41,880 nt of DNA from Acidobacteriota bacterium (GTDB taxonomy: Bacteria; Actinomycetota; Acidimicrobiia; Acidimicrobiales; Microtrichaceae), in contig QEUP01000028.1 in the NCBI GenBank assembly GCA_003577145.1, positions 1-41,880 of the forward strand. The letters are read 5' to 3'. Shown here piece after piece: positions 1,002 through 16,844 of this stretch. Under the pieces are notes generated by a model, which made no database searches, was not told where the DNA came from, and saw only the letters and a list, made by a program, of their open reading frames with translations. The first letter of the stretch is position 1; the number at the start of each line of letters is the position of its first letter. A program made the position numbers and the translations under genes.

Positions 1002-2987
1002 CTAGAGCACGTACACGCTGCGGATGACCTCGTCGACGGTGGTGATGTCCTGCTCGACGAGGCGTAGGGCCTCGACCTGCATCGTTCGCATGCCGTCGGA
1101 GACGCCCTGTGCCCGGATCTCGCGATGGGTCGCGTTCTGGGTGAGCATGTCGCGGATGGTGTCGGTGACACGCAACAGCTCGTAGACGCCGATGCGCTCC
1201 TGGTAGCCGGTGTGGTTGCAGAAGTTGCACCCCAGGCCGCGGATCCAGGTGTGCTTGTCACGGTTGAGCGTCTGGTTGAAGAGCTGGCGGTGCTCGGGCG
1301 GCGGCTCGTAGGTGGTGAGGCAAGACGGGCAGTTGCGGCGTACGAGCCGCTGGCCCACGACGCCGTTGACCGCCGATGACACCAGGAACGACTCGATGCC
1401 CATGTCCAAGAAGCGGTGCAGGGCGGCGGCGGCGTCGACGGAGTGCATCGAGGAGAGCACGAAGTGACCGGTGAGCGCGGACTGCACCGCGATGCGGGCC
1501 GTCTCCACGTCGCGGATCTCGCCGACGAGGATGATGTCGGGATCCTGGCGCAATATGGCCTTTAGCCCGGTTGCGAAGGTCATGGCCGCCTGCTCGTTGA
1601 TCTGGAGCTGGTTGATGCCCGAGAACACGTATTCGACCGGGTCCTCGATGGTCATCACGTTGCGGCTGACGTCGTTGATCTCGGCCAGGGTGGCATAGAG
1701 GGTGGTCGTCTTGCCCGAGCCGGTCGGGCCGGTGCAGATGACCATGCCCAACGGGGCCCGCACCAACTCCATATAGGACTCGACCGTGTCGTGGGGCATG
1801 CCCAGGTCCTCGAGCTGGAGCAGGGTGCGTCCCTTCTCGAGCAGGCGCATCACGACCTTCTCGCCGTTGATGGTGAGGGTCGTCGCCACGCGGGCGTCGA
1901 GTGGACGACCGTCGATCTCCACGGTGAACTGGCCGTCCTGGCTGCGCCGCCGCTCGACGATGTTCATGTCGGACATGACCTTGACGCGGCTGACGATCGC
2001 CTGACCCATCTTCTCGGGCAGCCTGATGGCGTCGGAGAGCGCCCCGTCTATGCGGTAGCGGATGCGGATGTCCTCGCCGGTCGGCTCGACGTGGATGTCA
2101 GAAGCCCGGCGCCTCACCGCCTGGGTGATGATCAGGTTCACGACCTGCACGACCGGGGCGTTCTCGTCGACGGTGAAGGTGTCGGCGATCTCGACCTCGC
2201 GGACCGCTTCGACGACCTCGAACGCCTGGACGTGCTGGCGGGTGCCGGCGAGGGCGCTGTAGGCCGTGTCGATCATGCGCCGGATGTCTTCTTCCGGCGC
2301 GATCATCACCGCGATCGCCCCGACCTCGTTGACGAGGCCTTCGATCACCGCGTTGTCGAGCGGATCGGCGATCACCACCTCGAGGCGGTCACCGTCGACC
2401 CGCAAGGGGAGGGCGGTGTAGGTGCGGGCGACCCGTTCGGGCATGACGTTGAGCACGCCGGGTTCGGGTTGCTCGACACGCAGGTCGGCGACCATGATGC
2501 CGAGCTGCTGACCCAGCGCGGTGGCCAGGTCGTAGGGGTCGAGCACCCCCAGCCCGACGAGCACCTCACCCAGGCGGCGGCCCGACTCCTGCTGGAGGCG
2601 CAGGCCGTCGACCAGGTCGTCGGCGTCGATGAAGCGGTTCTGCAGCAGGATCTCACCGATCGGCACCTGCTGGATGGCGTAGACCTCACCCGGTGGCTGG
2701 GAGTAGGAGGTGTCCTCGTGGCCTTCGGCACCGCCGCGCTCGGAACCAGCGTCTGGGTACTCCGCGGTCTCACCGAGGCCGAGGTCGGCGGTGACGAGCG
2801 CTCCGTTGTCGCCGGCGCCGTTGCCGCTGCTCACCGACGGGTCGAGCAGTGAAGGATCTACCGAAGGCGTCAGGGTGTCGTCGTCGGAGGGTTCGGCTTC
2901 GATGGTGATCGGCGGAGCGCCCCCGGCATCGTGGGACTCCTCGACCTCGTCGCTTCTCTTGTTGCCGCCGCGGCCAAGTCTCCTCAC
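1002..2987 (-). CDS. pilB: Type IV pilus assembly / type II secretion ATPase PilB/GspE
   Basis: Hexameric cytoplasmic ATPase that powers pilin assembly through the adjacent PilC/GspF platform. The protein has a low-complexity acidic N-terminus and a GspE N-terminal domain (VPIGEILLQNRFIDADDLVDG). The catalytic core has an Asp box (DIHVEP), Walker A GPTGSGKT near residue 420, Walker B ILVGEIRD and a His box (GHFVLSSMHS). A C-terminal zinc site is formed by CPSC near residue 550 and CNFC near residue 585. All motor motifs are present, so it should be active. I chose GTG at 2987 (661 residues) because a purine-rich GGAGAGGGGAACAGG precedes it. A frame extending to 3152 adds an arginine-rich stretch unlike the family. 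The name is by family; gspE is the alternative. Confidence 0.93.
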   Translation of the reverse strand: MRRLGRGGNKRSDEVEESHDAGGAPPITIEAEPSDDDTLTPSVDPSLLDPSVSSGNGAGDNGALVTADLGLGETAEYPDAGSERGGAEGHEDTSYSQPPGEVYAIQQVPIGEILLQNRFIDADDLVDGLRLQQESGRRLGEVLVGLGVLDPYDLATALGQQLGIMVADLRVEQPEPGVLNVMPERVARTYTALPLRVDGDRLEVVIADPLDNAVIEGLVNEVGAIAVMIAPEEDIRRMIDTAYSALAGTRQHVQAFEVVEAVREVEIADTFTVDENAPVVQVVNLIITQAVRRRASDIHVEPTGEDIRIRYRIDGALSDAIRLPEKMGQAIVSRVKVMSDMNIVERRRSQDGQFTVEIDGRPLDARVATTLTINGEKVVMRLLEKGRTLLQLEDLGMPHDTVESYMELVRAPLGMVICTGPTGSGKTTTLYATLAEINDVSRNVMTIEDPVEYVFSGINQLQINEQAAMTFATGLKAILRQDPDIILVGEIRDVETARIAVQSALTGHFVLSSMHSVDAAAALHRFLDMGIESFLVSSAVNGVVGQRLVRRNCPSCLTTYEPPPEHRQLFNQTLNRDKHTWIRGLGCNFCNHTGYQERIGVYELLRVTDTIRDMLTQNATHREIRAQGVSDGMRTMQVEALRLVEQDITTVDEVIRSVYVL

Positions 2988-3377
2988 GCCCTGTTCCCCT
3001 CTCCAGCACCGGCCACCCAACCATCTCCGGAAGGAGTCGTACCGACTGGGAGCCCGCCAACTAACCCGCCAGGGCCGAGTGGAGACACGTGCCGGCTCCC
3101 ACACGGTACGCGTCGGTAGCCGGGGTTGTCCAGCGTTGCGCCCGTCGTGCAAACCGCTCCGGCACGACCGGGTGTGCCGTTGCTGTCGATGGTCATCCTT
3201 CGGTTCCCGCCTGCCCTCGTCGCCTGGTTCCCTTCAGTCCACCACGGATCGGTGCCGCTGTTGTCGCGGGCTGCACGACCCTCGACCAACCCCGCCCGCA
3301 CGCACGCACGCACGGATCGACACTAGGTGAGCGCCGCTAAACGGGGCGTAAGCATCCCTCCGAGCAGATCACTCACT
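2988..3377. other. 390-bp intergenic region upstream of pilB
   Basis: No convincing gene is seen on either strand. Short open frames here have arginine- or proline-rich composition and no family resemblance. The region would hold the promoter and a leader for the minus-strand pilB-pilC pair. A small tetranucleotide run (GCAC repeated about four times) lies near 3298-3314. I compared it with the c-di-GMP-I riboswitch core, which is common ahead of pilus genes, and could not place its conserved blocks in order. Confidence 0.4.
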
Positions 3378-4343
3378 CTACGTGACAGTGCGGCCGCGGT
3401 TCCAGTGCTCCCTGAAGTCGAAGACGTCACGGTAGATCGCCAAGGCGTCGATCGGTTCGTCCCAGGCGACGCCGTCGAGCTCGCGGTAGGCGCGATGCAC
3501 GTTGAACGGCAGACGCCACGGCTCGTTCCAGCGGCCGTAGGGCCCGAGGTCGATCCGCTTGCAGGCCTCGACCACGGGACGACCTTCACGGTGATGGATC
3601 GCCGACTCGCTGCGCACGTGGCCGAGGTAGTCGCGCATCTCGACGAGGCCGTCGACGCCGCAGATCGGCCCGTGACCGGGAACGACGACGTCGGGTCCGA
3701 GCGCGGTGAGACCGTCGAGGGCCGCCATCCAGGTGCCGAAGGTGCCCTCCCAACCGATCGGCGTGCAGTTGCGGAAGCAGATGTCGCCGGTGAACAAGAC
3801 GCCTTCTTCGGGCAGGTGGGCGACGACGTCGCCGGCGGTGTGCGCCGGGCCCACGTAGATCAGCTCCACGCGGGTACCGTCGAGGTCGAGGTCGAGGCGA
3901 TCGTCGATGAGGGTCGTGGGCGGGGTGAGCTCGATCCCGGCGAAGTCGAACTCGGCGAACGCGCCGGCCAGCGCGGTGATGTGCGGTGGGAGGCCGCTGC
4001 TGTCGCCGCTGTCGAGTTGGTCCTTGACCACCTGAAGCACCTCAGGTGAGGAATCGGTCCCCATCCTCTCGGCGCACAACCGGTGACCGATGATCTCCGC
4101 AGCGGTGAACAGCTGGTTGCCCCAGCAGTGGTCGCCGTTGTGGTGGGTGTTGAGAAGCCGGCGCGCCGGCGACGGCGCAACCGTGGCGTAGGTGTCGATC
4201 AGACGACGGGTCAGGGACAGGTCGAAGAAGGTGTCGATGACCAGCCCGCCCCCGCGGTTGACCAGCCCCGAGTTGCTCCACCCGAGCCCGCGGTCCTCCT
4301 GCACGCAGGCGTAGACATCGGCGGTCAGCTCACGCAGCTCCAT
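3378..4343 (-). CDS. MBL-fold metallo-hydrolase
   Basis: Metallo-beta-lactamase-fold hydrolase of unknown substrate, 321 residues from ATG at 4343. The fold is shown by the metal motif region NTHHNGDHCWGN, the later metal-binding His/Asp segments (GPAHTAGDVVAHLP, LFTGDICF) and VVPGHGPICG. In the canonical HxHxDH motif the second histidine is asparagine here (HHNGDH). Some MBL subfamilies appear to carry this variant, so the metal site may be unusual rather than dead. The gene starts 11 bp after the stop of the DUF35 gene on the same strand, suggesting an operon. DUF35 proteins usually accompany acyl-CoA or thiolase enzymes, so a thioester or lactone substrate is possible, but this is inference. 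Confidence 0.85.
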   Translation of the reverse strand: MELRELTADVYACVQEDRGLGWSNSGLVNRGGGLVIDTFFDLSLTRRLIDTYATVAPSPARRLLNTHHNGDHCWGNQLFTAAEIIGHRLCAERMGTDSSPEVLQVVKDQLDSGDSSGLPPHITALAGAFAEFDFAGIELTPPTTLIDDRLDLDLDGTRVELIYVGPAHTAGDVVAHLPEEGVLFTGDICFRNCTPIGWEGTFGTWMAALDGLTALGPDVVVPGHGPICGVDGLVEMRDYLGHVRSESAIHHREGRPVVEACKRIDLGPYGRWNEPWRLPFNVHRAYRELDGVAWDEPIDALAIYRDVFDFREHWNRGRTVT

Positions 4344-4354
4344 CTGGCGCGACC

Positions 4355-4771
4355 TCAGCCACCCGCCCCGGCCACCACGAACACCGGGATGGTCACATCC
4401 TCTGACAGCTCCTCCCAGGCAACCTCGACCGGGGTGCCGATGTCGATGTCGTGTTCGGTGCAGCCGACGATCTTGGTCATCATCCGCGGTCCCTCGTCGA
4501 GCTCGACGACAGCCGCTATGTAGGGGACCTGCTCGGAGAACGGCGGCAGGTCGTTGCGGTACACCGTCGAGAACGTGTAGACGACGCCCCGGCCGCTCGC
4601 CTGCACCCACTCGACGTCGTCGCTCCAGGTGAACGGCGAGAACGGCCGCGGGTAGAAGTAGTGCCGACCGCTCTGGTTGCAGCGCTGGATGAGCAATCGG
4701 TGCTGTTGCGCGGCATCCCACCAGTGGCGGGTGTCGTCTTCGATGGTGGGCAGGTCGAAACGGGCTGCCAT
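4355..4771 (-). CDS. DUF35 OB-fold protein with degenerate zinc ribbon
   Basis: 138-residue protein of the Zn-ribbon/OB-fold DUF35 family, whose members often bind acyl-CoA and partner thiolases or acyl transferases. The family signature is the segment DVEWVQASGRGVVYTFSTVY followed by the OB strands (YIAAVVELDEGPRMMTKIVG; GTPVEVAWEEL). The N-terminal rubredoxin-like ribbon normally carries two CxxC pairs. Here the equivalent stretch reads QRCNQSGRHYFYPRPFSPF, with a single cysteine, so zinc binding is lost. The conserved aromatic/proline residues around it remain, as expected of a natural cysteine-less subfamily rather than a decaying gene. It leads a two-gene unit with the MBL hydrolase; the 5' end faces the divergent gene at 4855. 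Confidence 0.85.
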   Translation of the reverse strand: MAARFDLPTIEDDTRHWWDAAQQHRLLIQRCNQSGRHYFYPRPFSPFTWSDDVEWVQASGRGVVYTFSTVYRNDLPPFSEQVPYIAAVVELDEGPRMMTKIVGCTEHDIDIGTPVEVAWEELSEDVTIPVFVVAGAGG

Positions 4772-4854
4772 GGGCCACTGAGGTTAGACGGCACGCTGCT
4801 GGGCTGCTCTTATGAGTGGAAATACCTGAAATAACATGATATAGCATTGCGACC
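4772..4854. promoter_or_regulatory. Divergent promoter region, AT-rich
   Basis: This 83-bp gap separates the start codons of the minus-strand DUF35 gene and the plus-strand gene at 4855. Bases about 4811-4852 are markedly AT-rich in a GC-rich background (GAAATAACATGATATAGC). GATATAGC resembles a -10 element and lies close enough to the ATG at 4855 that the plus transcript would have a very short leader. No clear ribosome-binding site precedes that ATG. The promoter call is from composition and position only. Confidence 0.4.
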
Positions 4855-6693
4855 ATGGCTGAGCCGCAACTGGGCCTGGACCTCGACGGCAGCGCCCGCT
4901 TGCTGAGAGCACTGCGCAACGCCGAAGCCGAGGTCGGCCTGGCCCGGCAGCGCATCCGCGGTCTGATGGCCGTCCCAGGCGCTGCCCTCGACCGGCTCGG
5001 TCCCCTCGATGCGGCCCACGAGACCCTCGCCCGACACGCCCGTGTGCTCGCCGAGACCAGGCGGCGGCTCCTCGACCAGGGCCCGCCACCGGCCGAGGCG
5101 TGGATGACGACCCCCTCCCGAGACCCTCGCTCGGCACTCGACGCCTACCGGGCAGTTCCGGACGCGCTGGCCGCCTTGGAGGACGGCGACGTGCTCACCG
5201 CCGCCGACCTCGTGCGCCAGTGGTCGAACCACCCCGCCTTCGCGGCGACCTTCATCGAGGAGCTCGGCGCGGAGGGAATCGTCGACATCTGCTGGCTCGC
5301 CTACTCGCGCGGCAGCTACGACGGGGGTGACCACAACGAGTACGACGACCTCCTGATCGGGCTCACCACCGCCTTGCAGCGCAGCTTCGCGACCGCCGGG
5401 ACGCTGGTCGACTTCGACGACCTCCACCGCGTTGCACGCCGGCGCGACGGGCGCGACTTCCCGCTGGGCACCGAGGAGGTGAGCACCTCCCTGGCGATGC
5501 TGTTCCGCTACGGCATGTACTACCCGCCGGAGTTCTTCGTCGACGCCACCCGCAGCCTGGTCGTCGAGATGAACCAGCTCTACCTCCTCACCCCCATCGA
5601 TCAGCGCGCATCGGTGCTGCCGTCGATGGACCTGCGCCACCTCGTCCTGCGTTCCGCCTCCCGCAACTCCCGGGCTGCGATGGCCATCGTCGAGGAGTTC
5701 GACCTCGGCGATCTCGCCCACGCGTGGTTCGACTACGAGGACGACGGTGAGGCCCTGGGCGAGCTGCTGATGAAGGCGACCCGGCCCGATCCCGACGACA
5801 TCCCCGCGACCCGCATGGCTCTCGCGCGCCGTGTCATCACCATGGTCGCCACCGAGGAGATCGAACTGGCCGGCGGCGTCCACGACATCCTCGGGCTGCT
5901 GGCCGCGCCTTACATCAGCTCGTTCCGCGAACGGGGGACGCCCGACGACGCCTTCGCTCATGTCCCGTCGGCCCTTGCCCTCGACCACGGGATCGTCACC
6001 GGCTTCCTCGACGTGGCGATGGGTTCGACGCGCGCCGCACGCGACCTGCAGAAGGCCTCGACGGCCTGGGCGTGGCTCGAGTTCAACCGCCTGGCAGCCG
6101 ATCCTTCTTCCCCGCCGGCGGCCTACGCCGAGGTCGCCAACGGCGTCGCCACGGTCAACGGCGCCTGGGAGCAGCGACGCTTGAGCGACGCCCAACGTGC
6201 CGACACGAGAGCGGCGGTCACCGCCTTCGCCCTCGATCTCATGACCGAGGCCATCCCGGTGCCCGCGCTAGACCGGATTGTCTCGCCGTCGTCGATACCG
6301 GCGACGGCAGTGGCCGCCGATTCCATGGCCGGAGCCGGGTGGGACTCGTTGAGCGGCCTGGTCAACGACCTCATCACCGGTGGCACCGGCGACGAGCTCG
6401 AGCTCCGGCGCGACCAGTCACGCGTGCACCTCGAAGCCCGGGCCATGACGGTCCTCCTGGCCGCTCATGCGCTGAGGAACCAGGGCCGCCTCGACGGTCT
6501 CGACGACCCGCCCGAGCACCTCGATCCCGACCGACCGGACAGCAGCCGCCAAGACATCTCGCCCGACGAGGTCGACGAGTTGACGAGGATTGTCGACGAT
6601 CACCTGGCCTCCCGCAGAGAACCGGGCGTCCTCGCACGCGTGGCGGCCGAGATCTCGGGTGAGCTCGACGAGATCGACGCGAGTCGCGAGTAG
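4855..6693 (+). CDS. Large helical protein, DUF6571-like (ESX/WXG-associated type), function unknown
   Basis: 612-residue protein with no signal peptide or enzyme motif that I recognise. The N-terminal about 80 residues form an alpha-helical hairpin (LLRALRNAEAEVGLARQR; HETLARHARVLAETRRRL), like the N-termini of ESX-type substrates and antigen-like actinobacterial proteins. The middle (VRQWSNHPAFAATFIEELG, then EGIVDICWLAYSRG) resembles the DUF6571 pattern of actinobacterial proteins that accompany WXG100 proteins. The C-terminal third is again helical and acidic, with no recognisable toxin domain. It is followed convergently by a 73-residue WXG-like gene and then by two TPR giants. The DUF6571 assignment is from memory of the pattern and moderately secure; the secretion link is inference. 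Confidence 0.7.
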   Translation: MAEPQLGLDLDGSARLLRALRNAEAEVGLARQRIRGLMAVPGAALDRLGPLDAAHETLARHARVLAETRRRLLDQGPPPAEAWMTTPSRDPRSALDAYRAVPDALAALEDGDVLTAADLVRQWSNHPAFAATFIEELGAEGIVDICWLAYSRGSYDGGDHNEYDDLLIGLTTALQRSFATAGTLVDFDDLHRVARRRDGRDFPLGTEEVSTSLAMLFRYGMYYPPEFFVDATRSLVVEMNQLYLLTPIDQRASVLPSMDLRHLVLRSASRNSRAAMAIVEEFDLGDLAHAWFDYEDDGEALGELLMKATRPDPDDIPATRMALARRVITMVATEEIELAGGVHDILGLLAAPYISSFRERGTPDDAFAHVPSALALDHGIVTGFLDVAMGSTRAARDLQKASTAWAWLEFNRLAADPSSPPAAYAEVANGVATVNGAWEQRRLSDAQRADTRAAVTAFALDLMTEAIPVPALDRIVSPSSIPATAVAADSMAGAGWDSLSGLVNDLITGGTGDELELRRDQSRVHLEARAMTVLLAAHALRNQGRLDGLDDPPEHLDPDRPDSSRQDISPDEVDELTRIVDDHLASRREPGVLARVAAEISGELDEIDASRE

Positions 6694-6724
6694 ACCGCCG
6701 AGGCGACTCGATCGGGCGGCCGCC

Positions 6725-6946
6725 TCAGACCTGGCGCATGGCCGTGATCTCCTCGACCCAGGCCCTGATCCGGCGCAACAGCAACTCGAGCTCCTCGCGG
6801 CTCGCCCGGGGGATCCGGCCCCTCCAGACCTCGGGCCGGTTGAGCGCCCTCACCTCCTCGACCGCCGAGAGGACCCGCTGGGCCTCGCCTGCGAGCCGGG
6901 AGCGGGCCAGCGCCATCGCCGGTCCTGGCTCCAGCATGTGTGACAT
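6725..6946 (-). CDS. Small helical protein with a central W-R-G motif, WXG100-like
   Basis: 73 residues. Two predicted helices (about residues 10-36 and 48-70) flank a turn containing W41-R42-G43, the arrangement typical of WXG100/ESAT-6-like proteins. It is shorter than the usual 90-100 residues. The second helix is rich in Glu/Leu/Arg (SREELELLLRRIRAWVEEI). It lies convergent to the DUF6571-like gene (31 bp between stops) and divergent from the TPR gene at 7087. No EccC-type ATPase or other ESX component is in the window, so a secretion role is inferred only from motif and neighbourhood. It could instead be an unrelated small coiled-coil protein. Confidence 0.6.
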   Translation of the reverse strand: MSHMLEPGPAMALARSRLAGEAQRVLSAVEEVRALNRPEVWRGRIPRASREELELLLRRIRAWVEEITAMRQV

Positions 6947-7086
6947 GGCATGAGATTACATCAATTTCGGCATCCCGTAACCAGGGCAAGTGCCTTCGAG
7001 CAGTCTCTACTGCAAGCCGATGGCCTGTTGTCGAAGCCGCTAGCCTCACAGCCGGGCCGGCGCGACGAACACGAACGTGGAGATAG

Positions 7087-10000
7087 ATGTCCGACGTCGA
7101 GGGGGACGCAACCAGGCCCGGCACGGAGCGTGCGCCGGAGGAACCGACCGGCACCGAACCCGCGCTCGACCTTGCCGCGGCGCGCCGATTCGGTGCGTGC
7201 CGACGTCGGATCCTCCTCGGCGCATCCGACGGGGATGCGCTGGCTGCCCGGGCGCTGCTCGCCGCCTGGGGCGAGGGACCCATCACCGACGCGTTCATCG
7301 CAGTGAGAGCCGGCGCCGATCACGAACAGCTCCCGCGCCTGGTGGGCCACTGCATCCGCCGGCTGGCGCAGCTCGACTCCAAGCTCTCGTCAGTGCTCAT
7401 GTCCGACGCCGTGAGCCGCTGGCCGAACCACCCCGCGCTGAACGAGGTGCTGGAGCAACTGGCGCTCGGCGCGCACGCCGTACCCGACCGGATCTCGCAG
7501 CTGGCGATGGTCAGGCTCGAGGAGAGAAGCATCGACGACGCCCTCGACCTCCTCGGCACAAGCCGGCCCGACGACCCGGTGTGCCGGCACTGGGCGCTGG
7601 CCACCCGTGCGGCGGTGCTGCGCCAGCATCGACGCTTCCGTTCCGCCGCCACCTCGGGGAGGGAGTTGCTGGAGGAGTTCCCTTCCGCAGACGACCGCGA
7701 CCAGGTCCTGTTCCAGGTCTGTCTCGACGACTGGGCCGAGGGTGCACTGGCGGGCGTGCCGGCCAGGCTGCTCTCGGTCGCCCAGCGCCCGGGCGGGTTC
7801 GGCTCGGGGGGCGAAGCCCGCCAAGCCGTGAGCGTGCTCGACCAGATCGACATCGACCCGAAGACCGCTTCCCTGGGCCCGTCCCTCGTCCCCCTGCCGC
7901 TGGCGCTGCCGGCGACCCCCGAACCCGGGACCTCGAGCAGCGCCGCGTGGTCGGCGATAGCTCGGGCGATAGCAGGGCTGGCGGCGCTCGCACCGGCAGC
8001 CCCTCTCAACGGCGAGGGAATCACTTCAGCCGGCGCGCTGCTCTCCGCCGCGCGTCGCAGCGGGCTTCGTGCGGTGATGATCCGGCTCACACCCGATCTC
8101 GTCACCGCTCTGGTGGCCGCAGGCGTGATCGTGTGCCTCGATGCGACCCGCCACGGCCTCAACCGGCCGAACGTGATCGCAGGCTACGAACCGGTCGCCG
8201 ACGTTCTCCTCATCCGTGATCCCTCCTCGCCGGGGGCGTCGTGGATCACACGCTCCGAGCAGCAACGCCGCTGCCGCATCGACGCCATGACCGCCACCGC
8301 CGTGAGCGTGAGCACCGAGGGCGATCGCCTCCTCGAGAGGCTGGCAGCAGAGGGCGTCCACACGGGCGAGGAGCTCTTCGTCGAAGCCGGCGCTCTCGAC
8401 CGGATGGCTGGCGCGACTCTCGCCCCGGCCCGGGCCCCAACGGAGAGCGGCGACCTGCCTGAGGGCTTCGCCCTCTGGCTCCGGGACGCCCGTCGACGCC
8501 ACCCCGGAGCGGGATGGGTCGAGGAGGTGCACGCCAGGGCGCTCGAATCAGCCGGCCGCCACGACGAGTCGGTGGCGGCGTGGATGCGAGCGGTGTCCCT
8601 CGACGGTGATGCCATGGCCTGCAACGGCTTGGCGAAGGGCCTCGCTCGCACCGGCCACCCCGCCGAAGCACGCCTGGCGCTGCGCAGCGCCTTCGCCCGG
8701 GGTGCACCCGATGTCGGATCCCTGGTGCTGCTGGCCAGGCTCACCGAGCAAGACGACAGGGACGCCGCCGGGATCCTCGTCGACGTCGCGGTCGACCTCG
8801 ATCCCGACGACTTGGCCGCTCTCACCGAGCAGGCAGCCCTGGCCGGCAAGCTCACCGATCCCGACAAGTCCGTTCGTGCCCTCGAGCGCATGAACGACGT
8901 CGACCCCGCCAACCTCGACACTGCTGGTCGCCTCACCCGCCGGCTCATGATGATCGGCCGCTGGGGCGCCGCCGGATCGCGGGCGGCGTCGCTGGCACGC
9001 TCGCTCCCCGAGGAGGCGGCCGCCTGGCAGCTCGCAGCCCACACGGCGTGGTGCAGGGCACGAGCCGAGGAGGCCCTGGAAACCTGGCTCGCCGGGATCC
9101 GCCGTTGCGGTCCCGACAGCGGACTGGTCCGTGGAGCAGCCCGAACAGTGGCGACCCTCTTCGCAGCTGAGCGCATGTCCGAGCCGCTCCTCGAACTGGC
9201 CGCCTGCCTCGCCTCCAAGCCCGAGGCCATCCTCGACGCCGCTTCGGTGCTCGACCGCCACCAGCACCCGGCTCAGGCGGCCGAGCTGACGGCGCGGGCC
9301 ATGCAGGATCCCGGCATCGAAGGCGGTCACGGCAGGCGGGCATGGCGGGTCGCCCAGAGGCTCTCGGCCCGCGCAGTCACCCGCGGGTCGCACCACGAGC
9401 AGATCATCACCCTGCTGAGCCGGGCAGTCGACGCCGCGGGGACCTTCGCGCCCCCGCGCATCCTCCTGGCATCCCATCTCCTCGCCGACGGCAACACCGA
9501 GCCCGCGTCCCACCTCCTGGCCGAGGCCGCCCCCTCGACGGATTACGCGCCGGCGCTGTTCGAGCTGCGAGCGCGCGCCGCCGAGGCCGCCGGCGAACCG
9601 GGGCTGGCCCAGATCCACCGCGCCCAGAGGCGCTCGTGCGAACCGGCAACGCTCCTGCGCTGCGCTCCGTGGCTCCGCTCCGTCGGGCTGGCCGCGTTCA
9701 CCTCGGACCTGCTCGAAGAGGTGGAGCGCGAGCTCCCCAACCACGTGGGTGTGCTCGTGCAGCTTGCGTTCTGCCTCCGTGATCTGGGTGAGGCGGATGC
9801 GGCACTCGAACGCCTCGTTCGCGCGCACGTGCTGAACCCGCGCGCTGTCGAAGCCCCGCCGCTCCTCGACCTGGCCGAGGCCGGCGGCGCCTGGGAGCTC
9901 GTCAAGCAGGTCTGCAAGAACGAGATCGCCGCTGCCACCGCCGACTCGCGCCTCGACACCGACACCTGGTCCATGCAAGGGCGGCTCGCAGGCGTCGCCC

Positions 10001-10185
10001 TTCTCGATGGCAACGGGGAACCACGAAGCAATCTGGCGGCGCGAGCGTCTCACCACCCCGGCGCGTGGTACCACCTCGTGCGCATCGAATCGCTGCTCGA
10101 CGACGAGCATCTGGAGGCCGATCTCGACCATCTGACTCGAATCGCGCCGGGTAGCGCCTGCCGCATCAGGGAAGAGGGCGTGTGA
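7087..10185 (+). CDS. Giant TPR protein with an embedded, apparently inactive C39-peptidase-like domain
   Basis: 1032 residues from ATG at 7087, preceded by GGAGATAG. Most of it is helical repeats of TPR type (for example residues about 470-600: HARALESAGRHDESVAAWMR, GLAKGLARTGHPAEARLAL). At about residues 274-381 there is a papain-like C39_2-type segment. It has a helix (SSSAAWSAIARAIAG) where the Cys-bearing helix belongs, then ITSAGALLSAARRSGLRAVM, a beta run ending VIAGYE, and LLIRDPSS. The nucleophile cysteine appears to be serine, and the histidine before the VxxGY strand appears to be asparagine, so it is probably a pseudo-peptidase. No signal peptide is seen. The next gene overlaps it by 4 bp and has the same architecture, so the pair is co-translated and probably arose by duplication. 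Role unknown; scaffold or substrate-binding function is inferred. Confidence 0.8.
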   Translation: MSDVEGDATRPGTERAPEEPTGTEPALDLAAARRFGACRRRILLGASDGDALAARALLAAWGEGPITDAFIAVRAGADHEQLPRLVGHCIRRLAQLDSKLSSVLMSDAVSRWPNHPALNEVLEQLALGAHAVPDRISQLAMVRLEERSIDDALDLLGTSRPDDPVCRHWALATRAAVLRQHRRFRSAATSGRELLEEFPSADDRDQVLFQVCLDDWAEGALAGVPARLLSVAQRPGGFGSGGEARQAVSVLDQIDIDPKTASLGPSLVPLPLALPATPEPGTSSSAAWSAIARAIAGLAALAPAAPLNGEGITSAGALLSAARRSGLRAVMIRLTPDLVTALVAAGVIVCLDATRHGLNRPNVIAGYEPVADVLLIRDPSSPGASWITRSEQQRRCRIDAMTATAVSVSTEGDRLLERLAAEGVHTGEELFVEAGALDRMAGATLAPARAPTESGDLPEGFALWLRDARRRHPGAGWVEEVHARALESAGRHDESVAAWMRAVSLDGDAMACNGLAKGLARTGHPAEARLALRSAFARGAPDVGSLVLLARLTEQDDRDAAGILVDVAVDLDPDDLAALTEQAALAGKLTDPDKSVRALERMNDVDPANLDTAGRLTRRLMMIGRWGAAGSRAASLARSLPEEAAAWQLAAHTAWCRARAEEALETWLAGIRRCGPDSGLVRGAARTVATLFAAERMSEPLLELAACLASKPEAILDAASVLDRHQHPAQAAELTARAMQDPGIEGGHGRRAWRVAQRLSARAVTRGSHHEQIITLLSRAVDAAGTFAPPRILLASHLLADGNTEPASHLLAEAAPSTDYAPALFELRARAAEAAGEPGLAQIHRAQRRSCEPATLLRCAPWLRSVGLAAFTSDLLEEVERELPNHVGVLVQLAFCLRDLGEADAALERLVRAHVLNPRAVEAPPLLDLAEAGGAWELVKQVCKNEIAAATADSRLDTDTWSMQGRLAGVALLDGNGEPRSNLAARASHHPGAWYHLVRIESLLDDEHLEADLDHLTRIAPGSACRIREEGV

Positions 10186-13100
10186 GAGTCCTGGAGCTCG
10201 ATGCCTTGATCGCCGCCGAGCGCTACCGCGACGCTGCGGCCCTCGCCACCCGCCTCACCGAGGAGGACCTCGAGAGCGCCGATGCCTGGCTGGTGAGGAT
10301 ACGCCGTACTCACATCGCGCTCGTCAGCAACGAGGTGGCCCTCGACGACGCCCTCATCGACCTCGAAGGCGTAACCGAAGCGCGAGGGCTCTCGGCGAGC
10401 GTCGCCGCGGAGGCCTACGCGGGTCTCATCGACGGATACGCCGCCAAGCGGTGTTGGGCGCTGGTGGCCGAAGCGACGAGAGCCTCCCGGAAGCACGTTG
10501 GCACACGGCCCTCGGTCACGCTTGCCGAAGCCAGGGCTGCGCTGACCGCCGACCTCGTGTCGACCGCTGGCCGCAAGTGCGAGGCGGTTCTCGACGCCGA
10601 CCCCGACAACGCCGAGGCTCACTTCGAGGCGGCCCGGCTCAGGTGCTTCGTAGGCGACCCGGAGCAGGCGCTGGCGCATCTCGACGAGGTCACCGGCGAT
10701 GCCGAGCCCTGGGCACGGGCAACCCGCCTGCGCGCCGAGCTCTGCGCGGCGATCGGCGAACCGCTCGCCGAGGCCGGGCACTGGGCGGCCGTCATCGAGG
10801 AGCGGCCTTCGAGCGACCGATCGGCGGAGGACCACCTGCGGCTCGGCATGGCGCTGTCCATGGCCGGTCGACCCAGGGACGCCGGTGTCGCGCTGCACGC
10901 GGCCTGGCGGCTGGCGCCCGGGACAAGGCCTGGAAGGCAGGCCCGCCAGCACGCCCTCTCCCTCCGCCGAACAGCCTCGGCGCTGAACAAGCGCCTGGCG
11001 GTGTCGTGCCGCAGTTCAACCGCCTTGCCCCTCGACCTCCCCCCCGTCATCAGGGCCGCGCTCGCCCACCTCCCCGAGGCACGTCTCCCCGACACCTCCG
11101 GCCGAGCCGTTGGCCCAGCGCGCGATCGGGAGAGCCTGCTCACCGTCGTCGACACCCTGACCGGGCTCGGCGTCGCCACCAGGCGTGTCGAGGCTTCGCC
11201 GCACCTCGTACGCGAGGCGGTCAACCTCTCGCTCCCAACCATCATCTGGAACGACCTCGCCGCTCCTGCACCCCCGGTCGTGGCGGTGGGCTACGACGAC
11301 GCCCTGGGGATCGTCATCACCATCGACCCGCGAACCCACCGGCAGGGAAGCTTGCCGATGGCGCTGAGCTCGCGTGACACCTGGCTCGGCTCACATGCCC
11401 TCGTGGTCATCGGGCGAAGCGATCACCTCCACGATTCGCTGCGCGACGCGTGCGCATCGCGGGGGCTCGCCGACGCGGACCATCTGCTGCAGATCGACGC
11501 CTGTGACAGAGCCGGTCCGCTCGACCCCGAGAGCGAGCCTCAGGCCCGCGCCCATCTCGCCCGTTGCGAGGAGGCTGCGCGACGCTTCCCGGGCTCGTTG
11601 CTGGTCGAGCTCCGGCGCTGGAGGGCGCTGGAACGGTACCGCGAGCTGACCGGGGACGAGAACGCCGAACCGGTCGTCGCCCGACGGCTGGCGCAGCTCT
11701 CACGCTTCGGGCCGCTGTCCCGCTGGACAGCGCGGCTGTACGGCGCACACCTCGCCTCACTCGGGCGCCCTGACGAGGCGGTCGCGGCCTTCGAGCAAGC
11801 CCTGGCACCGGCACCCGGCGATACGGGCAGCGATGCGGTTACCGCGGCCGATGTCGCAGCGGCCGCCGGGGAATGCGCGGAGCAAGCCGGCTGGCGGGCG
11901 GACGCGCTCGGCCACCTGCATTCGGCTCTGGCTACAGACCCCGCCCACCTGCGTGCCAACGAGAACCTCGCCGCGCTGTACCTCGACGAGGTGGCGGCAA
12001 CTCGACACGACAACCGGTGGCAGTCGTGGCTCGACGATCCCGCATGGCTCTGCACCGGTCCCCGGGGGCCCTCGACGGGAGACATCGGTGAGACGGTGGC
12101 GCTGGCGAGGGCACGGCACTTCAGCCGGGTCGCTGTCTCCCGCTCGCCCGGCAACCCGTTCAACCAGGAGTTGGCCGGCCGCCTCGCATTGCTCGACGGC
12201 CGTTGGAGCGACGCCGCCGCGGCGTTCCGGTCCGTCCTCGAGCGCGATCCGGCTCGGATGACAGCCCGGCTCGGCTTCGCCGCGGCGATGGAGCTCGACG
12301 ACCGGCCGGAGCTCGCCGCGGGCGTTCTCGACGAGTTGATCGCCGCCGCCCCGGCATCGGCACCCGCCTCCCTCACGGCCGCCGCGTTCCGATACCGCCG
12401 CGGTGACACCGGCGGTGCAACCAACCTGCTCGAATCGGCCGCCTCCCCCCTCGCGGACAGCCAGACAGTGTGGGACGCGCTCTACGACCTGATCGCCTCG
12501 ACCGACGGGGTCCAGGCGGCTGCATCGGCCATCGCCGCACGGGGCTCGCTCTCGTGCTGCGTGAGGGCTGCCCGGACTCTCGACGCCAACGGCCACCGGG
12601 GTACGGCGCTGACCGTGCTGCGAAGCAACGCGGCGGGGGACGAAGGCGCTGAGGGGCACCTGCGGCAGGAACGTCGCGAGGCCGCTTCCGAGCTGGGGCT
12701 GCTCCTGAGCCAGGACCCGCTGTGCCACGACGAAGCCGCCTCCCTGCTGATGCAGCTGATCAGCGAACAACCGGACGCAGACGATCTGCGAACCGCTGCC
12801 GCCTGGTGTCTCGCAGGGCGCGATCGATCCAAGGCGATGGAGGTCCTCCGACCTGCAGTCGACCGAGCCGATTGGCGGGCGCTGGACACCCGGGCAGCGC
12901 TCTTGTCTGCTGCCGGCGCCGAGACAGATGCCGAGGTCTCGAGCCGCACGGCGATCGAGCTGGCAGGCGGCGAGCCGGCCGGCCGGATGCGGCTGGTCCG
13001 CTGGCACCTGGACCAGGGCCGGCCGACCCGCGCGGTGGCACTGGCGTCGGGCTTGCGCCATCTCACCATGGACGCCGAGCGCGTCCGGATCGATGCCTAC

Positions 13101-14012
13101 TTCCGTGCGGGAATGGCCGAGCTGATACTCGACGACCTCCGCTGCCGTTACGGCGACGACATCCCTCCCGACCTCGCCGAGGAGATCTTCCGCGCCGCCG
13201 AAGGAAGCGACGACCTCCTCGCCGCGGCCGCAGCCCGCCGGGTCGCCGACTCGAGCGCCGACCCGCGTCGCCGTCTCGGCTACCGGATCGCCGCAGCCCT
13301 GGCACAGGGGCGTCTCGGCGACACCCGACCGCTCGATCAGCTGCACCAGGAGTGCGGCCGGCAGGCGTGGGCCTGGGCCGAGATCGGCCGTGCCCATCTC
13401 CTTCTCGGTCAGGTCGATGCGGGCAGCGACGCGGCCAGCCGGGCCCTGGCGAGTGACGACACCGAACCACTGGCGCTGGCGCTGGCTGTCGAGGTCGCGC
13501 TGTGCCGCAACGAGATCCCATCCGCCGTCGAGCTCGCCGGCCGCCTCGACAGCCTTCACGGCGAGCTCGCTACGGGTGCGGTCCAGCTGGCCCTCGCCTT
13601 CGCCAAGAGCCAGAAGCCGTCGGTGGCCAGGAGGCATGCCGCCCGCGCCCTGGCTCTCGTGCCGTTCTCATCGACGGCCCACACGGCGATGGCCGCCGCG
13701 CGCTTCGCCGGCGGCGACCTCGGTGCTGCTCGGACCCACGCCGAACGGGCGCTCGAGCTCGACGCCGGGAGATCCGACGCGGGCCACGACGCCACCCTGA
13801 TCCTCGCCGCCCTCGCCGGTCGGGTGGAAGAGGTCCAGGAGGGGCTGCGGGCGCGGAGCCGCCTCGAGCCGGGATCGCTGTTCCTGGACTACAAGAAGCT
13901 GCTGGTCGCCACCGCCAGGGCCAGGCGCGACATCACCGGTGATCTGGGACCGTTGCGGCGCGCCAGGAGCGACGAATCGATCCAGGGACGGGTCGCGCCG
14001 AACACCCCCTAG
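10182..14012 (+). CDS. Second giant TPR protein with pseudo-C39-like domain
   Basis: 1276 residues from GTG at 10182, which overlaps the upstream stop as GTGA. N-terminal TPRs (CEAVLDADPDNAEAHFEAAR; HLRLGMALSMAGRPRDAGVA) are followed at about residues 283-419 by a C39-peptidase-like segment: RESLLTVVDTLTGLGVATRR, PPVVAVGYDDALGIVITIDP, and a C-terminal helix-strand unit. Neither a cysteine at the expected helix nor a histidine before VVAVGYD is present, so catalysis is unlikely. The remaining about 850 residues are TPR-like repeats (LASLGRPDEAVAAFEQAL; ELAGRLALLDGRWSDAAAAF). The pseudo-domain sits at the same relative place as in the upstream protein. The stop codon TAG shares the tetranucleotide CTAG with the stop of the convergent SGNH gene. 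Function unknown. Confidence 0.8.
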   Translation: MRVLELDALIAAERYRDAAALATRLTEEDLESADAWLVRIRRTHIALVSNEVALDDALIDLEGVTEARGLSASVAAEAYAGLIDGYAAKRCWALVAEATRASRKHVGTRPSVTLAEARAALTADLVSTAGRKCEAVLDADPDNAEAHFEAARLRCFVGDPEQALAHLDEVTGDAEPWARATRLRAELCAAIGEPLAEAGHWAAVIEERPSSDRSAEDHLRLGMALSMAGRPRDAGVALHAAWRLAPGTRPGRQARQHALSLRRTASALNKRLAVSCRSSTALPLDLPPVIRAALAHLPEARLPDTSGRAVGPARDRESLLTVVDTLTGLGVATRRVEASPHLVREAVNLSLPTIIWNDLAAPAPPVVAVGYDDALGIVITIDPRTHRQGSLPMALSSRDTWLGSHALVVIGRSDHLHDSLRDACASRGLADADHLLQIDACDRAGPLDPESEPQARAHLARCEEAARRFPGSLLVELRRWRALERYRELTGDENAEPVVARRLAQLSRFGPLSRWTARLYGAHLASLGRPDEAVAAFEQALAPAPGDTGSDAVTAADVAAAAGECAEQAGWRADALGHLHSALATDPAHLRANENLAALYLDEVAATRHDNRWQSWLDDPAWLCTGPRGPSTGDIGETVALARARHFSRVAVSRSPGNPFNQELAGRLALLDGRWSDAAAAFRSVLERDPARMTARLGFAAAMELDDRPELAAGVLDELIAAAPASAPASLTAAAFRYRRGDTGGATNLLESAASPLADSQTVWDALYDLIASTDGVQAAASAIAARGSLSCCVRAARTLDANGHRGTALTVLRSNAAGDEGAEGHLRQERREAASELGLLLSQDPLCHDEAASLLMQLISEQPDADDLRTAAAWCLAGRDRSKAMEVLRPAVDRADWRALDTRAALLSAAGAETDAEVSSRTAIELAGGEPAGRMRLVRWHLDQGRPTRAVALASGLRHLTMDAERVRIDAYFRAGMAELILDDLRCRYGDDIPPDLAEEIFRAAEGSDDLLAAAAARRVADSSADPRRRLGYRIAAALAQGRLGDTRPLDQLHQECGRQAWAWAEIGRAHLLLGQVDAGSDAASRALASDDTEPLALALAVEVALCRNEIPSAVELAGRLDSLHGELATGAVQLALAFAKSQKPSVARRHAARALALVPFSSTAHTAMAAARFAGGDLGAARTHAERALELDAGRSDAGHDATLILAALAGRVEEVQEGLRARSRLEPGSLFLDYKKLLVATARARRDITGDLGPLRRARSDESIQGRVAPNTP

Positions 14013-15214
14013 CCGAAGTCCCAGTGGATCCCGAGGGAGTCGTAGACCGCCATCGAGATGAGGTCGGTGCATTCGAGGGTCACGTGGACGCCGTCCTGCT
14101 GGCGACACTTCACAGTGGAGCCGTCAGGAAGGGTCAGCCAGTCGGTGTAGGCGCCGCTTGCGTCGACCAGCAGAGGGCGGGTGTCGACGAACTCGACCCA
14201 AGGTCGCTTGGCCGCCTCCTCGGCGGCGATCTGGTTGACGTTCGCCATGATCGAATCCATATCGGGGTTGCGCATGATCGGCTGGCCGACCCAGAACACG
14301 CGGCGATGGTCGTCTTCGGTCTTGAGCAGGTCCATCGTCCCGGCGATCCGACGCCGGTACTCGTCGTACCACTCCTGGGTGCCACGGGCGGCGACGAGGT
14401 TGAGATCTTCGTCGGTCATGTCCTGCCAGTCGTTGCCTCCGGCAAACAGGACCATCGCTTCGGGATCCGATTCCTTGGCGATCTGATCGATGCGCCGCGG
14501 CCAGTGGAAGAAGTCGAGACGCACCCACCCGGAGGAGAGTTTGAACTCGTAGTTGACGTCGACGTTGCCGAGCTCGTCGCCGATCTGTTCCATCGACACC
14601 CCGAGCGCCTCGGTGGCCGAATCGCCGACGACCCATATCCGCAGCGGATCAGCCGCGGTCACCTGGCGTATCGGTTCGGGTGGCGCGGTCGTCGTCGTGG
14701 CCTGCTCGCTCGTGGCCGGGTCAGCGGACTCGCTCGGCGTGGCCTGCTCCTCGGTTTCGGGAGAGGGGAAGACGAACTCGCCGTCTCCGCCCGTGTCGTC
14801 CTCGATCATTCCCTGGACCCAGTCGTTGGGGCGGTTCAACGACAGCAGGTTGCTGACTCGGTCGATGGACTTGGCGAGAACCAGCGAGACGTCGCGGCGG
14901 AACCCGAACGGCTGCTGCTCGGCGATCTCGACGAGGCTGCCCGAGGCAAGCAGGACGAAGATGACGAACGCGACGATCGCTCCCGTGACCGTCGAACGGG
15001 CACTCATGGTACGTCGTTTGAGCTGAGGACTCCGCTCGACGATCGTCTCCCGGGCGCTCGCCGGAGGCCGGACCGCGTCACGGTCGGGGCCCGCGGCGGT
15101 CGTGGTTGTGACGTCGGAGCTGTCCTCGATCTCGTGTCGAGGGCCGGCCTGCGAGGTTCCTCGGGTACCCGACGCGCCACGCCGCCGGCGACTGCTCTGG
15201 GAGACGGTGCTCAT
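14009..15214 (-). CDS. Membrane-anchored SGNH/DUF459 hydrolase, partner of MBOAT acyltransferase
   Basis: 401 residues. A cytoplasmic Arg/Ser-rich N-terminus is followed by one transmembrane helix (about residues 70-95, TGAIVAFVIFVLLASGSLV) and a Thr/Pro-rich linker. The extracytoplasmic SGNH domain has block I WVVGDSATEALG (Ser near residue 198), block III GGNDWQDM and the C-terminal Asp-x-x-His (QDGVHVT). All catalytic residues are present. Enzymes of this type transfer or remove O-acyl groups on surface glycans. The MBOAT gene 91 bp upstream on the same strand would supply acyl groups across the membrane. ATG at 15214 has only a weak Shine-Dalgarno sequence. The substrate polymer is unknown. 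Confidence 0.85.
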   Translation of the reverse strand: MSTVSQSSRRRRGASGTRGTSQAGPRHEIEDSSDVTTTTAAGPDRDAVRPPASARETIVERSPQLKRRTMSARSTVTGAIVAFVIFVLLASGSLVEIAEQQPFGFRRDVSLVLAKSIDRVSNLLSLNRPNDWVQGMIEDDTGGDGEFVFPSPETEEQATPSESADPATSEQATTTTAPPEPIRQVTAADPLRIWVVGDSATEALGVSMEQIGDELGNVDVNYEFKLSSGWVRLDFFHWPRRIDQIAKESDPEAMVLFAGGNDWQDMTDEDLNLVAARGTQEWYDEYRRRIAGTMDLLKTEDDHRRVFWVGQPIMRNPDMDSIMANVNQIAAEEAAKRPWVEFVDTRPLLVDASGAYTDWLTLPDGSTVKCRQQDGVHVTLECTDLISMAVYDSLGIHWDFG

Positions 15215-15305
15215 CGCTCAACCGAGCATATCGTCAGCAACCTCCGCAGCTGGGTTCGCCCCGACTCCGAGCTGACCCGGTTCGCTCTTGTCGCCCGAGC
15301 GCGGC

Positions 15306-16844
15306 TCAGAACTGGAAGTAGATGAAGGGGGCGACGGCGTGGGGGCCGACGAGGAAGTCGAAGCTGATGTCGATGACCCACAGCCAGATCCCGAACAGCG
15401 CACCCTGGAGCACCGGTGCCACGCGCGAGAGACGGGTTTCGAACCGCTGCCCCCAGCGTGTCGGGGCGTACTGGAATACCAGCGCTGCGAAGACGACGAA
15501 CGCCATCATCGGGGTGAGGATCCCGAAACCGCCCCAACCGGTGAAGATGCGGGTGAAGATCTCCCAGGCTGTGCTCATGTTCTCGGACCGGAAGAGGATC
15601 CAGCCGCCGCACACGAACAGGAACGTGAAGATCCGTCTGCGCCAGATGTGGGCCCGGGGGATGATCGGGTCGAGCGGGTTGGGGCCCTGGTCGGGGGTCC
15701 AGGTGTAGCTGCGGTGGCGGCCCGCATAGAGCAGGGCGAGACGCTCCATGCTGGTGGGCTGGCGATCGGGCTCCCTCTGGTGACGCTCGTGGACGTCTCG
15801 CACCCAACGCTCGCCGGCCAGTCCGACGCCGTGGTACATGCCCCAGATCACGAACGTCCAGCTCGCGCCGTGCCACAGTCCGCCGAGGAGCATCGTGAGG
15901 AACAGGTTCCGGTACTCGGCCAGCCTGCCGCGCTGGTTGCCGCCCAGCGGTATGTAGAGGTAGTCGCGTAGCCAGCGGGAAAGCGTCATGTGCCAGCGAC
16001 GCCAGAAGTCCTGGATGGACACCGCTGTGTATGGACGGTTGAAGTTGTCCGGGAACTTGATCCCGACGAGGAGCGCGCAGCCGATGGCGATGTCGGTGTA
16101 GCCGCTGAAGTCGGCGTAGATCTGCACGGCGTAGGCGAAGACGGCCATGACGACGACGATCGCCGTGAAGTCGCTCGGGTTGCCGAACACCGGGTCGACG
16201 AGGTTCACCCCGAGGTAGGTGGCGACGACGACCTTCTTGAACAGCCCGCGCCCGATCAACATGATCGCCCTGGTCGCATCGACCTTGTCGGGGCTGCGGA
16301 ACTTGCGGAGCTGGGGCAGGAACTCCGACGCCCGGACGATCGGGCCGGCGGCCAGGTGAGGGAAGAACGCGAGGTACACCGCGATGTCGAGCAGCGGAGC
16401 CGGGCTCACCTGCTTGCGGTAGACGTCGACCACGTAGCTGATGGCCTGGAAGGTGAAGAAGGAGATCCCGATAGGGAGGATCACCTCGAGTAGCGGCAGG
16501 TTCGATGGCAGCCCGATCGCGTCGAGGAAGTTGACCGCGGAGCTGATGAAGAACCCGTAGTACTTGAAGAAGCCGAGGATGAGGAGGTCGAACCCGACTC
16601 CCAGTGCGATCCAGGCCTTCTTGCGCCCGTCGGTGCTCGCCTTGAACACACCGATGGCCGCGACCTCGTTCACCACGGTGGTCGCGGCGAGGAGGAAGAT
16701 GAAACGCCAGTCCCACCAGCCGTAGAAGACGTAGCTGGCGGCGAGCATGAACAGCTTCCATGCGCGTGGCCTGCTGTTGAGGCGCCAGCTGACGGCGAGC
16801 ACGATCAGGAAGAAGATCGCGAACGTCAGTGTCGGGAACAGCAA
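15306..16844 (-). CDS. MBOAT family membrane O-acyltransferase (AlgI/PatA/DltB type)
   Basis: 512 residues with about ten hydrophobic segments. Family marks are the start FPTLTFAIFFLIVLAVSWRL, SYVFYGWWDWRFIFLL, the middle PIGISFFTFQAISYVVDVYR, YADFSGYTDIAIGCALLVG and the invariant-histidine motif LLGGLWHGASWTFVIWG (His near residue 318). AlgI-like MBOATs move acetyl groups from cytosolic acetyl-CoA to an outer acceptor; the SGNH protein downstream is the likely second transferase. I chose TTG at 16844 because AGGAGG lies nine bases upstream and the protein begins in the expected place. A rho-independent-like hairpin separates it from the upstream luciferase-like gene, so it probably has its own promoter between 16845 and 16930. 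Confidence 0.92.
   Translation of the reverse strand: MLFPTLTFAIFFLIVLAVSWRLNSRPRAWKLFMLAASYVFYGWWDWRFIFLLAATTVVNEVAAIGVFKASTDGRKKAWIALGVGFDLLILGFFKYYGFFISSAVNFLDAIGLPSNLPLLEVILPIGISFFTFQAISYVVDVYRKQVSPAPLLDIAVYLAFFPHLAAGPIVRASEFLPQLRKFRSPDKVDATRAIMLIGRGLFKKVVVATYLGVNLVDPVFGNPSDFTAIVVVMAVFAYAVQIYADFSGYTDIAIGCALLVGIKFPDNFNRPYTAVSIQDFWRRWHMTLSRWLRDYLYIPLGGNQRGRLAEYRNLFLTMLLGGLWHGASWTFVIWGMYHGVGLAGERWVRDVHERHQREPDRQPTSMERLALLYAGRHRSYTWTPDQGPNPLDPIIPRAHIWRRRIFTFLFVCGGWILFRSENMSTAWEIFTRIFTGWGGFGILTPMMAFVVFAALVFQYAPTRWGQRFETRLSRVAPVLQGALFGIWLWVIDISFDFLVGPHAVAPFIYFQF

Follow-up and report, generated by a model that had tools for sequence, protein, structure and literature searches.

A stretch of 41,880 nucleotides from contig QEUP01000028.1, hereafter the window (the whole stretch of DNA that was analysed), carries two consecutive genes, P1 and P2, which encode large proteins of the tetratricopeptide repeat (TPR) type. 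Each protein contains a segment resembling the C39/papain-like cysteine peptidases, and a structural model together with the sequences predicts that this segment is a degenerate, non-catalytic C39-like domain in both. The pair is tentatively read, at somewhat less than even confidence, as soluble TPR-type scaffolds whose non-cutting pseudo-C39 domains would bind a peptide or a stretch of unfolded protein. An earlier note on this DNA had described tandem giant TPR proteins with a catalytically dead C39-like domain at the same position and suggested peptide or protein binding, possibly by a heteromeric scaffold; as a whole, its observation is partly confirmed and its interpretation partly supported. 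The genes and domains are as follows.

7087..10185, + strand: P1 gene, TPR-type protein of 1032 amino acids (open reading frame, codon-position GC)
7882..8340, + strand: C39/papain-like domain of P1, residues 266-418 (AlphaFold2 model, PDB matches)
10182..14012, + strand: P2 gene, TPR protein of 1276 amino acids with a GTG start (open reading frame, codon-position GC, TPR_19)
11010..11417, + strand: C39/papain-like domain of P2, residues ~277-412 (hhalign against the ABC-type C39 profile, ungapped register with P1)

Profile evidence for the C39-like domain

The reference set comprised 11 C39 domains from loci of the own genome and of related genomes, 4 of the ATP-binding cassette (ABC) transporter type and 7 others. 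From these, two profiles were made, the ABC-type profile from the 4 ABC-transporter domains and the mixed profile from all 11. With HMMER, the P2 segment scored 7.6 bits against the ABC-type profile, above all 500 shuffles (best 3.0), and against the mixed profile the P1 and P2 segments reached 1.2 and 1.6 bits, levels attained by 11 and 9 of 500 shuffles, respectively. In hhalign, P2 scored 29.2 against the ABC-type profile (best of 60 shuffles 18.3; reversed sequence 23.1) in an alignment spanning 86 columns, while the mixed profile gave 20.0 for the P2 segment (best of 60 shuffles 17.8; reversed 18.2). With the mixed profile, the top window lies over the segment in each protein (20.3 in P2, 17.8 in P1), and the three best windows per protein all cover the C39-like domain.

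Neither Smith-Waterman nor BLASTP comparison of P1 with P2 detects significant similarity, the pairwise score being 36 against a null mean of 36.8. Residues 326-405 of P1 align without gaps with residues 330-409 of P2; an equally good window is held by 16 of 2149 diagonals, and a hydropathy correlation as high as that of the gap-free window is seen in 0.16% of window pairs. Joined into a two-row profile, P1 and P2 scored 26.6 with the mixed C39 profile and 16.6 with the ABC-type profile; the best of 100 column shuffles stood at 19.5 and 15.8, respectively, and none of the shuffles reached the score in either comparison. The single-protein tests with HMMER and hhalign preceded the P1 model described below, and the joint test followed it.

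Structure prediction

Residues 266-418 of P1 were modelled with AlphaFold2 from an alignment whose sole other row was P2 336-414; this alignment was picked because the gap-free part alone is aligned, a choice that preceded the model. The model has a mean predicted local distance difference test score (pLDDT) of 53.9 and a predicted template modelling score of 0.50, with its elements in the order H-H-E-H-E-h-E-E-E-H-E. Foldseek returned 240 PDB matches at E<=10. Among the best 50 of these 240, the first 36 are, by their titles and by what we take to be their classification, papain-like cysteine peptidases or dead relatives of them, including PCAT1, the HlyB domain 3ZUA, Vibrio 3B79, ComA, calpain, phytochelatin synthase, staphopain and PeiR. 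VIA-align placed 3ZUA, the C39-like domain of HlyB, at rank 1 (111 residues aligned, root-mean-square deviation 3.4, Z 7.8, a Z below 8 being one that may reflect merely a common arrangement), followed by calpain, PeiR, staphopain, UfSP, PCAT1, phytochelatin synthase, ComA and others. A sequence search of the PDB with the isolated segments gave no match for P1 and one irrelevant match for P2 (E 0.62).

The main argument for the fold is that the top PDB rows belong to one superfamily and that the profile tests agree with it; a papain/C39-like fold in P1, by a low-confidence model, and in P2, by profile, is moderately supported. The structure prediction and fold search that the earlier note had proposed gave papain-like matches on top for P1, but for P2 the model failed in the domain. 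Of the outcomes which that note had named as speaking against it, neither a non-papain predicted structure nor homologues with an aligned Cys-His-Asp appeared.

Catalytic positions

The profile register places the catalytic His six residues before the strand Gly. The residues concerned are listed below.

7933..7941, + strand: P1 Ser283-Ser285, start of the first helix, the Cys site of C39 peptidases (low-pLDDT model, residue spacing)
8164..8166, + strand: P1 Arg360 at the catalytic His position (profile register)
8218..8220, + strand: P1 Asp378, Asp of the DP motif, kept (profile register)
11271..11273, + strand: P2 Pro364 at the catalytic His position (profile register)
11325..11327, + strand: P2 Asp382, Asp of the DP motif, kept (profile register)

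The modelled first helix begins at model residue 20, which is P1 residue 285 (pLDDT below 50), and Ser283 lies 77 residues from Arg360; among the reference domains, Cys and His are 73 residues apart in the 4 of ABC type and 98-141 apart in the other 7. P1 has Cys residues at 350 and 396, neither at the start of the first helix, and P2 has them at 276 and 424 with none between, its residues 280-291 containing neither Ser nor Cys. Judged by the profile register, the Cys and His of the Cys-His-Asp triad are absent at their expected positions in both proteins and the Asp is kept, so that the earlier claim of a replaced Cys and His is supported, with Arg360 and Pro364 at the His position and no Cys at the helix start. 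The loss of the His depends on this register, since each protein has another His in the segment, His356 ahead of the strand in P1 and His405 ahead of the last strand in P2.

TPR content and family-library matches

In Pfam and NCBIfam, P1 and P2 have solely TPR or TPR-like matches. P2 lies above the Pfam TPR cut-off (TPR_19, 65.1 bits vs 25, E 7.4e-18), with TPR stretches flanking the C39-like segment on both sides, whereas P1 is marginal (TPR_2, 26.9 bits vs a cut-off of 27, other TPR models below theirs). The best TPR stretches listed for P1, at residues 515-552, 585-669 and 875-923, all follow the segment, and the placement of the domain inside TPR arrays is consequently shown for P2 only, while the nearly matching place of a Pfam-invisible segment in the two proteins stands. 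The best NCBIfam match of both is TIGR02917 (41 and 57.4 bits vs a cut-off of 312.2). No PADLOC match was obtained at E<=0.1, PHROG gave one weak match (E 0.0056) to the TPR part of P2, and Pfam detected no ABC or transporter membrane domain in either protein. The sole Pfam match of the isolated segments, Inovirus_capsid at E 0.54, is taken as chance.

A PF13529 search of the own genome finds two other proteins and neither P1 nor P2. The C39_2 proteins L005 and L006 of this genome retain both Cys and His, and their domain is preceded by acidic stretches rich in aspartate.

The gene pair

P1 and P2 are the longest open reading frames in the window, and their GC contents at codon positions 1, 2 and 3 (0.77/0.55/0.85 for P1, 0.77/0.56/0.84 for P2) follow a coding pattern. 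Their coordinates, lengths and 4-bp overlap had been given exactly in the earlier note. The following features accompany the pair.

6947..7086, + strand: gap of 140 bp upstream of the pair, which could hold its promoter (bounded by the opposite-strand open reading frame 6725-6946)
10170-10177, + strand: ribosome-site-like run GGAAGAGG before the P2 start (direct reading)
10182..10185, + strand: GTGA, the 4-bp overlap of P1 stop and P2 start (direct reading)

By eye, a purine-rich run stands 4 bases upstream of each of the two starts. A scan of 6600-14300 found no sigma-70-like promoter. The two genes are probably co-transcribed. A cytosolic place is likely for both proteins, in which no signal peptide or membrane segment is seen by eye, predictors not having been applied.

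Distribution

Genome scans with P1, P2 or the joint profile numbered 1607 in total, repeats included, and no credible relative of P1 or P2 was found among them. In a set of 61 relatives, each protein was recovered from one genome, its own (up to 13 candidates scored per genome for P1 and up to 10 for P2). In the class and phylum runs the best 2 candidates per genome were scored, so the absence at these levels is not absolute. Matches to P2 occurred in 3 of 395 genomes of the class and in 14 of 396 of the phylum, the own genome included, and no other match covers P2 270-425. For P1, matches were present in 5 of 395 genomes of the class, again including its own, and two of them overlap the domain. 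Of these, L091 is an acyl-CoA-dehydrogenase-like frame at which local tblastn at E<=10 does not reproduce the match (by eye), and L092 is a frame with stops, antisense to a sensor-like open reading frame (by eye); both were rejected as relatives, the latter despite a local tblastn E of 3e-6 in a four-locus database.

A core profile of P1 and P2 gave a match at E<=0.5 in 122 of 298 genomes of the order, including the own one; the best E apart from the own pair was 0.0011, and none of the loci L094, L096, L097, L101, L105, L106 and L111 (7 of the 19 others) is a TPR protein by eye. Pattern scans of genome contigs matched 35 and 18 stretches, none coding for a relative, and P2, the sole query there, has no match in viral contigs and plasmids. 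Other TPR-C39 proteins were sought with PF13529, which has a match at E<=0.1 in 30 of 296 genomes of the class. The frames of 22 of the 31 PF13529 loci (L005-L035) encode C39 proteins of the ABC-transporter and other types, papain-like proteins and unrelated ones, and no TPR was recognised by eye in any of them. In the portions of the literature that were available, no description of a dead C39 domain in a TPR protein was found.

Comparison with known systems

To our knowledge, C39 domains that have lost catalysis have been described only in secretion transporters, where they tether the substrate. In HlyB, the C39-like domain is reported to be without the catalytic Cys, to be non-proteolytic and to tether unfolded HlyA (PMC8277102, PMC6363468), and it retains a His, H83 (PMC8277102). 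Inactive peptidase domains have also been proposed as peptide-binding modules in polymorphic toxins (PMC3482391).

The domains of P1 and P2 share with those of HlyB-type type I secretion systems (3ZUA, 3B79) a degenerate C39 fold with loss of the catalytic Cys, 3ZUA being the top alignment of the P1 model. They differ in that the HlyB-type domain is N-terminal to a membrane ABC transporter while those of P1 and P2 lie in soluble-looking repeat proteins, and in that HlyB keeps its His while in P1 and P2 the His position is replaced as well. With the C39 peptidase domains of the PCAT type (PCAT1, ComA, LahT) they have in common the fold and the order of elements; unlike these, they are without Cys and His and without a transporter part, and the genome has no PF03412 protein. 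Among TPR proteins, the PA2778-family C39-TPR cysteine peptidase NF033920 presumably combines C39 and TPR in one protein, but its match, at 11.2 bits vs a cut-off of 150, falls in the TPR part of P2. The PrsT / PEP-CTERM TPR protein (TIGR02917) is similar in its long TPR arrays, whereas the scores of P1 and P2 are far under its cut-off.

Neighbourhood

Upstream of the pair lies P0003 (4855-6693, + strand), a 612-residue gene with coding-type codon GC, for which Pfam, NCBIfam, PADLOC and PHROG gave no match at the limits used; of 41 genomes searched, its own alone contains it. The region 4855-14012 thus contains three genes (P0003, P1, P2) without known relatives. P0003 and P1 are separated by a gap of 393 bp containing an opposite-strand open reading frame of 73 residues (6725-6946, - strand), which is divergent from P1 and may be a small gene with which P1 shares the 140-bp gap.

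On the downstream side, DUF459 and MBOAT genes occupy 14009-16844 (- strand), the DUF459 gene converging on the pair; the MBOAT frame is 15306-16844, and the open reading frame 15211-16761 has no Pfam match. DUF459 is present in 22 of 46 genomes, and nine regions from relatives were selected for a DUF459 match. MBOAT is found in 7 of these 9, and P1, P2 and P0003 in none of them at E<=1e-3. Upstream of the three orphans, 1002-4955 (- strand) encodes a PilB-like ATPase (T2SSE with MshEN), a protein of metallo-beta-lactamase fold and a zinc-ribbon/OB gene of ChsH2 type. No mobility gene occurs among the Pfam-scanned neighbours.

Interpretation and alternative explanations

In the proposed mechanism, P1 and P2 would be two soluble TPR-type scaffolds made from one overlapping gene pair, each carrying a degenerate C39/papain-like domain whose lack of Cys and His should leave it unable to cut. 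Displayed on a helical-repeat scaffold, this domain would bind a peptide or a stretch of unfolded protein, in a role that parallels that of the dead C39-like domain of HlyB at its transporter. The functional guess is reasonable because the use of a dead C39 fold for binding has this precedent. Ligand binding by the two domains is suggested by analogy, and P1 and P2 may also act as partners in a complex. A further-reaching form, in which the paralogous pseudo-C39 domains form paired peptide-binding pockets within TPR solenoids, as a lineage-restricted, soluble two-protein machine that uses the fold without a transporter, appears rather doubtful.

Several results count against the scaffold reading. 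P1 by itself is not significant by sequence: it scored -2.2 bits with the ABC-type profile in HMMER (133 of 500 shuffles as high), gave no signal with that profile in hhalign (12.2), and at 17.5 with the mixed profile was exceeded by 1 of 60 shuffles (18.55). The margin of the joint profile on the ABC-type profile is small. The P1 model is one of five, the other four remaining at a pLDDT of 34-39; its residues 1-47, which include the Cys helix, are below 50; its best Foldseek E is 3.4e-3, with none below 1e-3; and in VIA-align a Z of 5 is reached by 160 of 899 chains and a Z of 8 by none. A single-sequence model of P2 180-480 was uninformative in the domain (pLDDT ~28-42 per ten residues). Pfam has no C39 match for the full proteins (E<=0.1) or the isolated segments (E<=10), a conserved binding surface cannot be shown because no homologues were found, and a PF03412 search of the own genome yielded no ABC-type C39 protein at E<=1, so that no transporter partner of the HlyB kind is evident.

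Some of these points would be explained if there were no C39-like domain at all and an alpha/beta segment between helical repeats resembled one by chance. The low pLDDT, reached in one model of five, fits this view, as do the position of P1 alone within its shuffles and the lack of pairwise similarity to P2; it is nonetheless unlikely, since the first 36 Foldseek rows are of one superfamily by their presumed classification, and both P2 against the ABC-type profile and the combined P1 and P2 profile surpass every shuffle. If the fold is real, it may instead be a relic or structural spacer, an ancestral peptidase insert that now just shapes the solenoid of ordinary TPR scaffolds. A divergence so great that Pfam misses the domain, the absence of a recognisable ligand partner, of conservation data and of an ABC-type C39 protein in the genome would all agree with this, but the strand pattern and the GY and DP motifs are kept in both copies, which is not expected of a relic free of constraint, and we give this explanation a minor share of the probability.

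That the domain keeps its chemistry through other residues, such as P1 Ser283-285 as nucleophile, or P1 His356 or P2 His405 as base, is highly improbable. P1 does have Ser at the expected Cys site, and its His356 precedes the His position by four residues; the residues at both positions, however, differ between P1 and P2, and P2 offers no Ser or Cys at 280-291. It is similarly very unlikely that the pair and the upstream orphan P0003 form one mobile or conflict-type island. The three orphans lie together, were not found in the relatives searched, and adjoin a DUF459/MBOAT pair that occurs in relatives in their absence, but PADLOC is silent, the single PHROG match is weak and confined to the TPR part of P2, the gap with its opposite-strand open reading frame divides P0003 from P1, and the scanned neighbours include no gene for mobility.

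Significance

The analysis indicates that a domain missed by profile libraries is recoverable from two diverged copies, each serving as the alignment of the other. Should the scaffold reading be correct, a C39-like fold without Cys and His, occurring twice in one soluble TPR gene pair, would add scaffolding to the roles of pseudo-peptidases and would offer a simple, testable pair in which to ask what the fold binds after the loss of catalysis.

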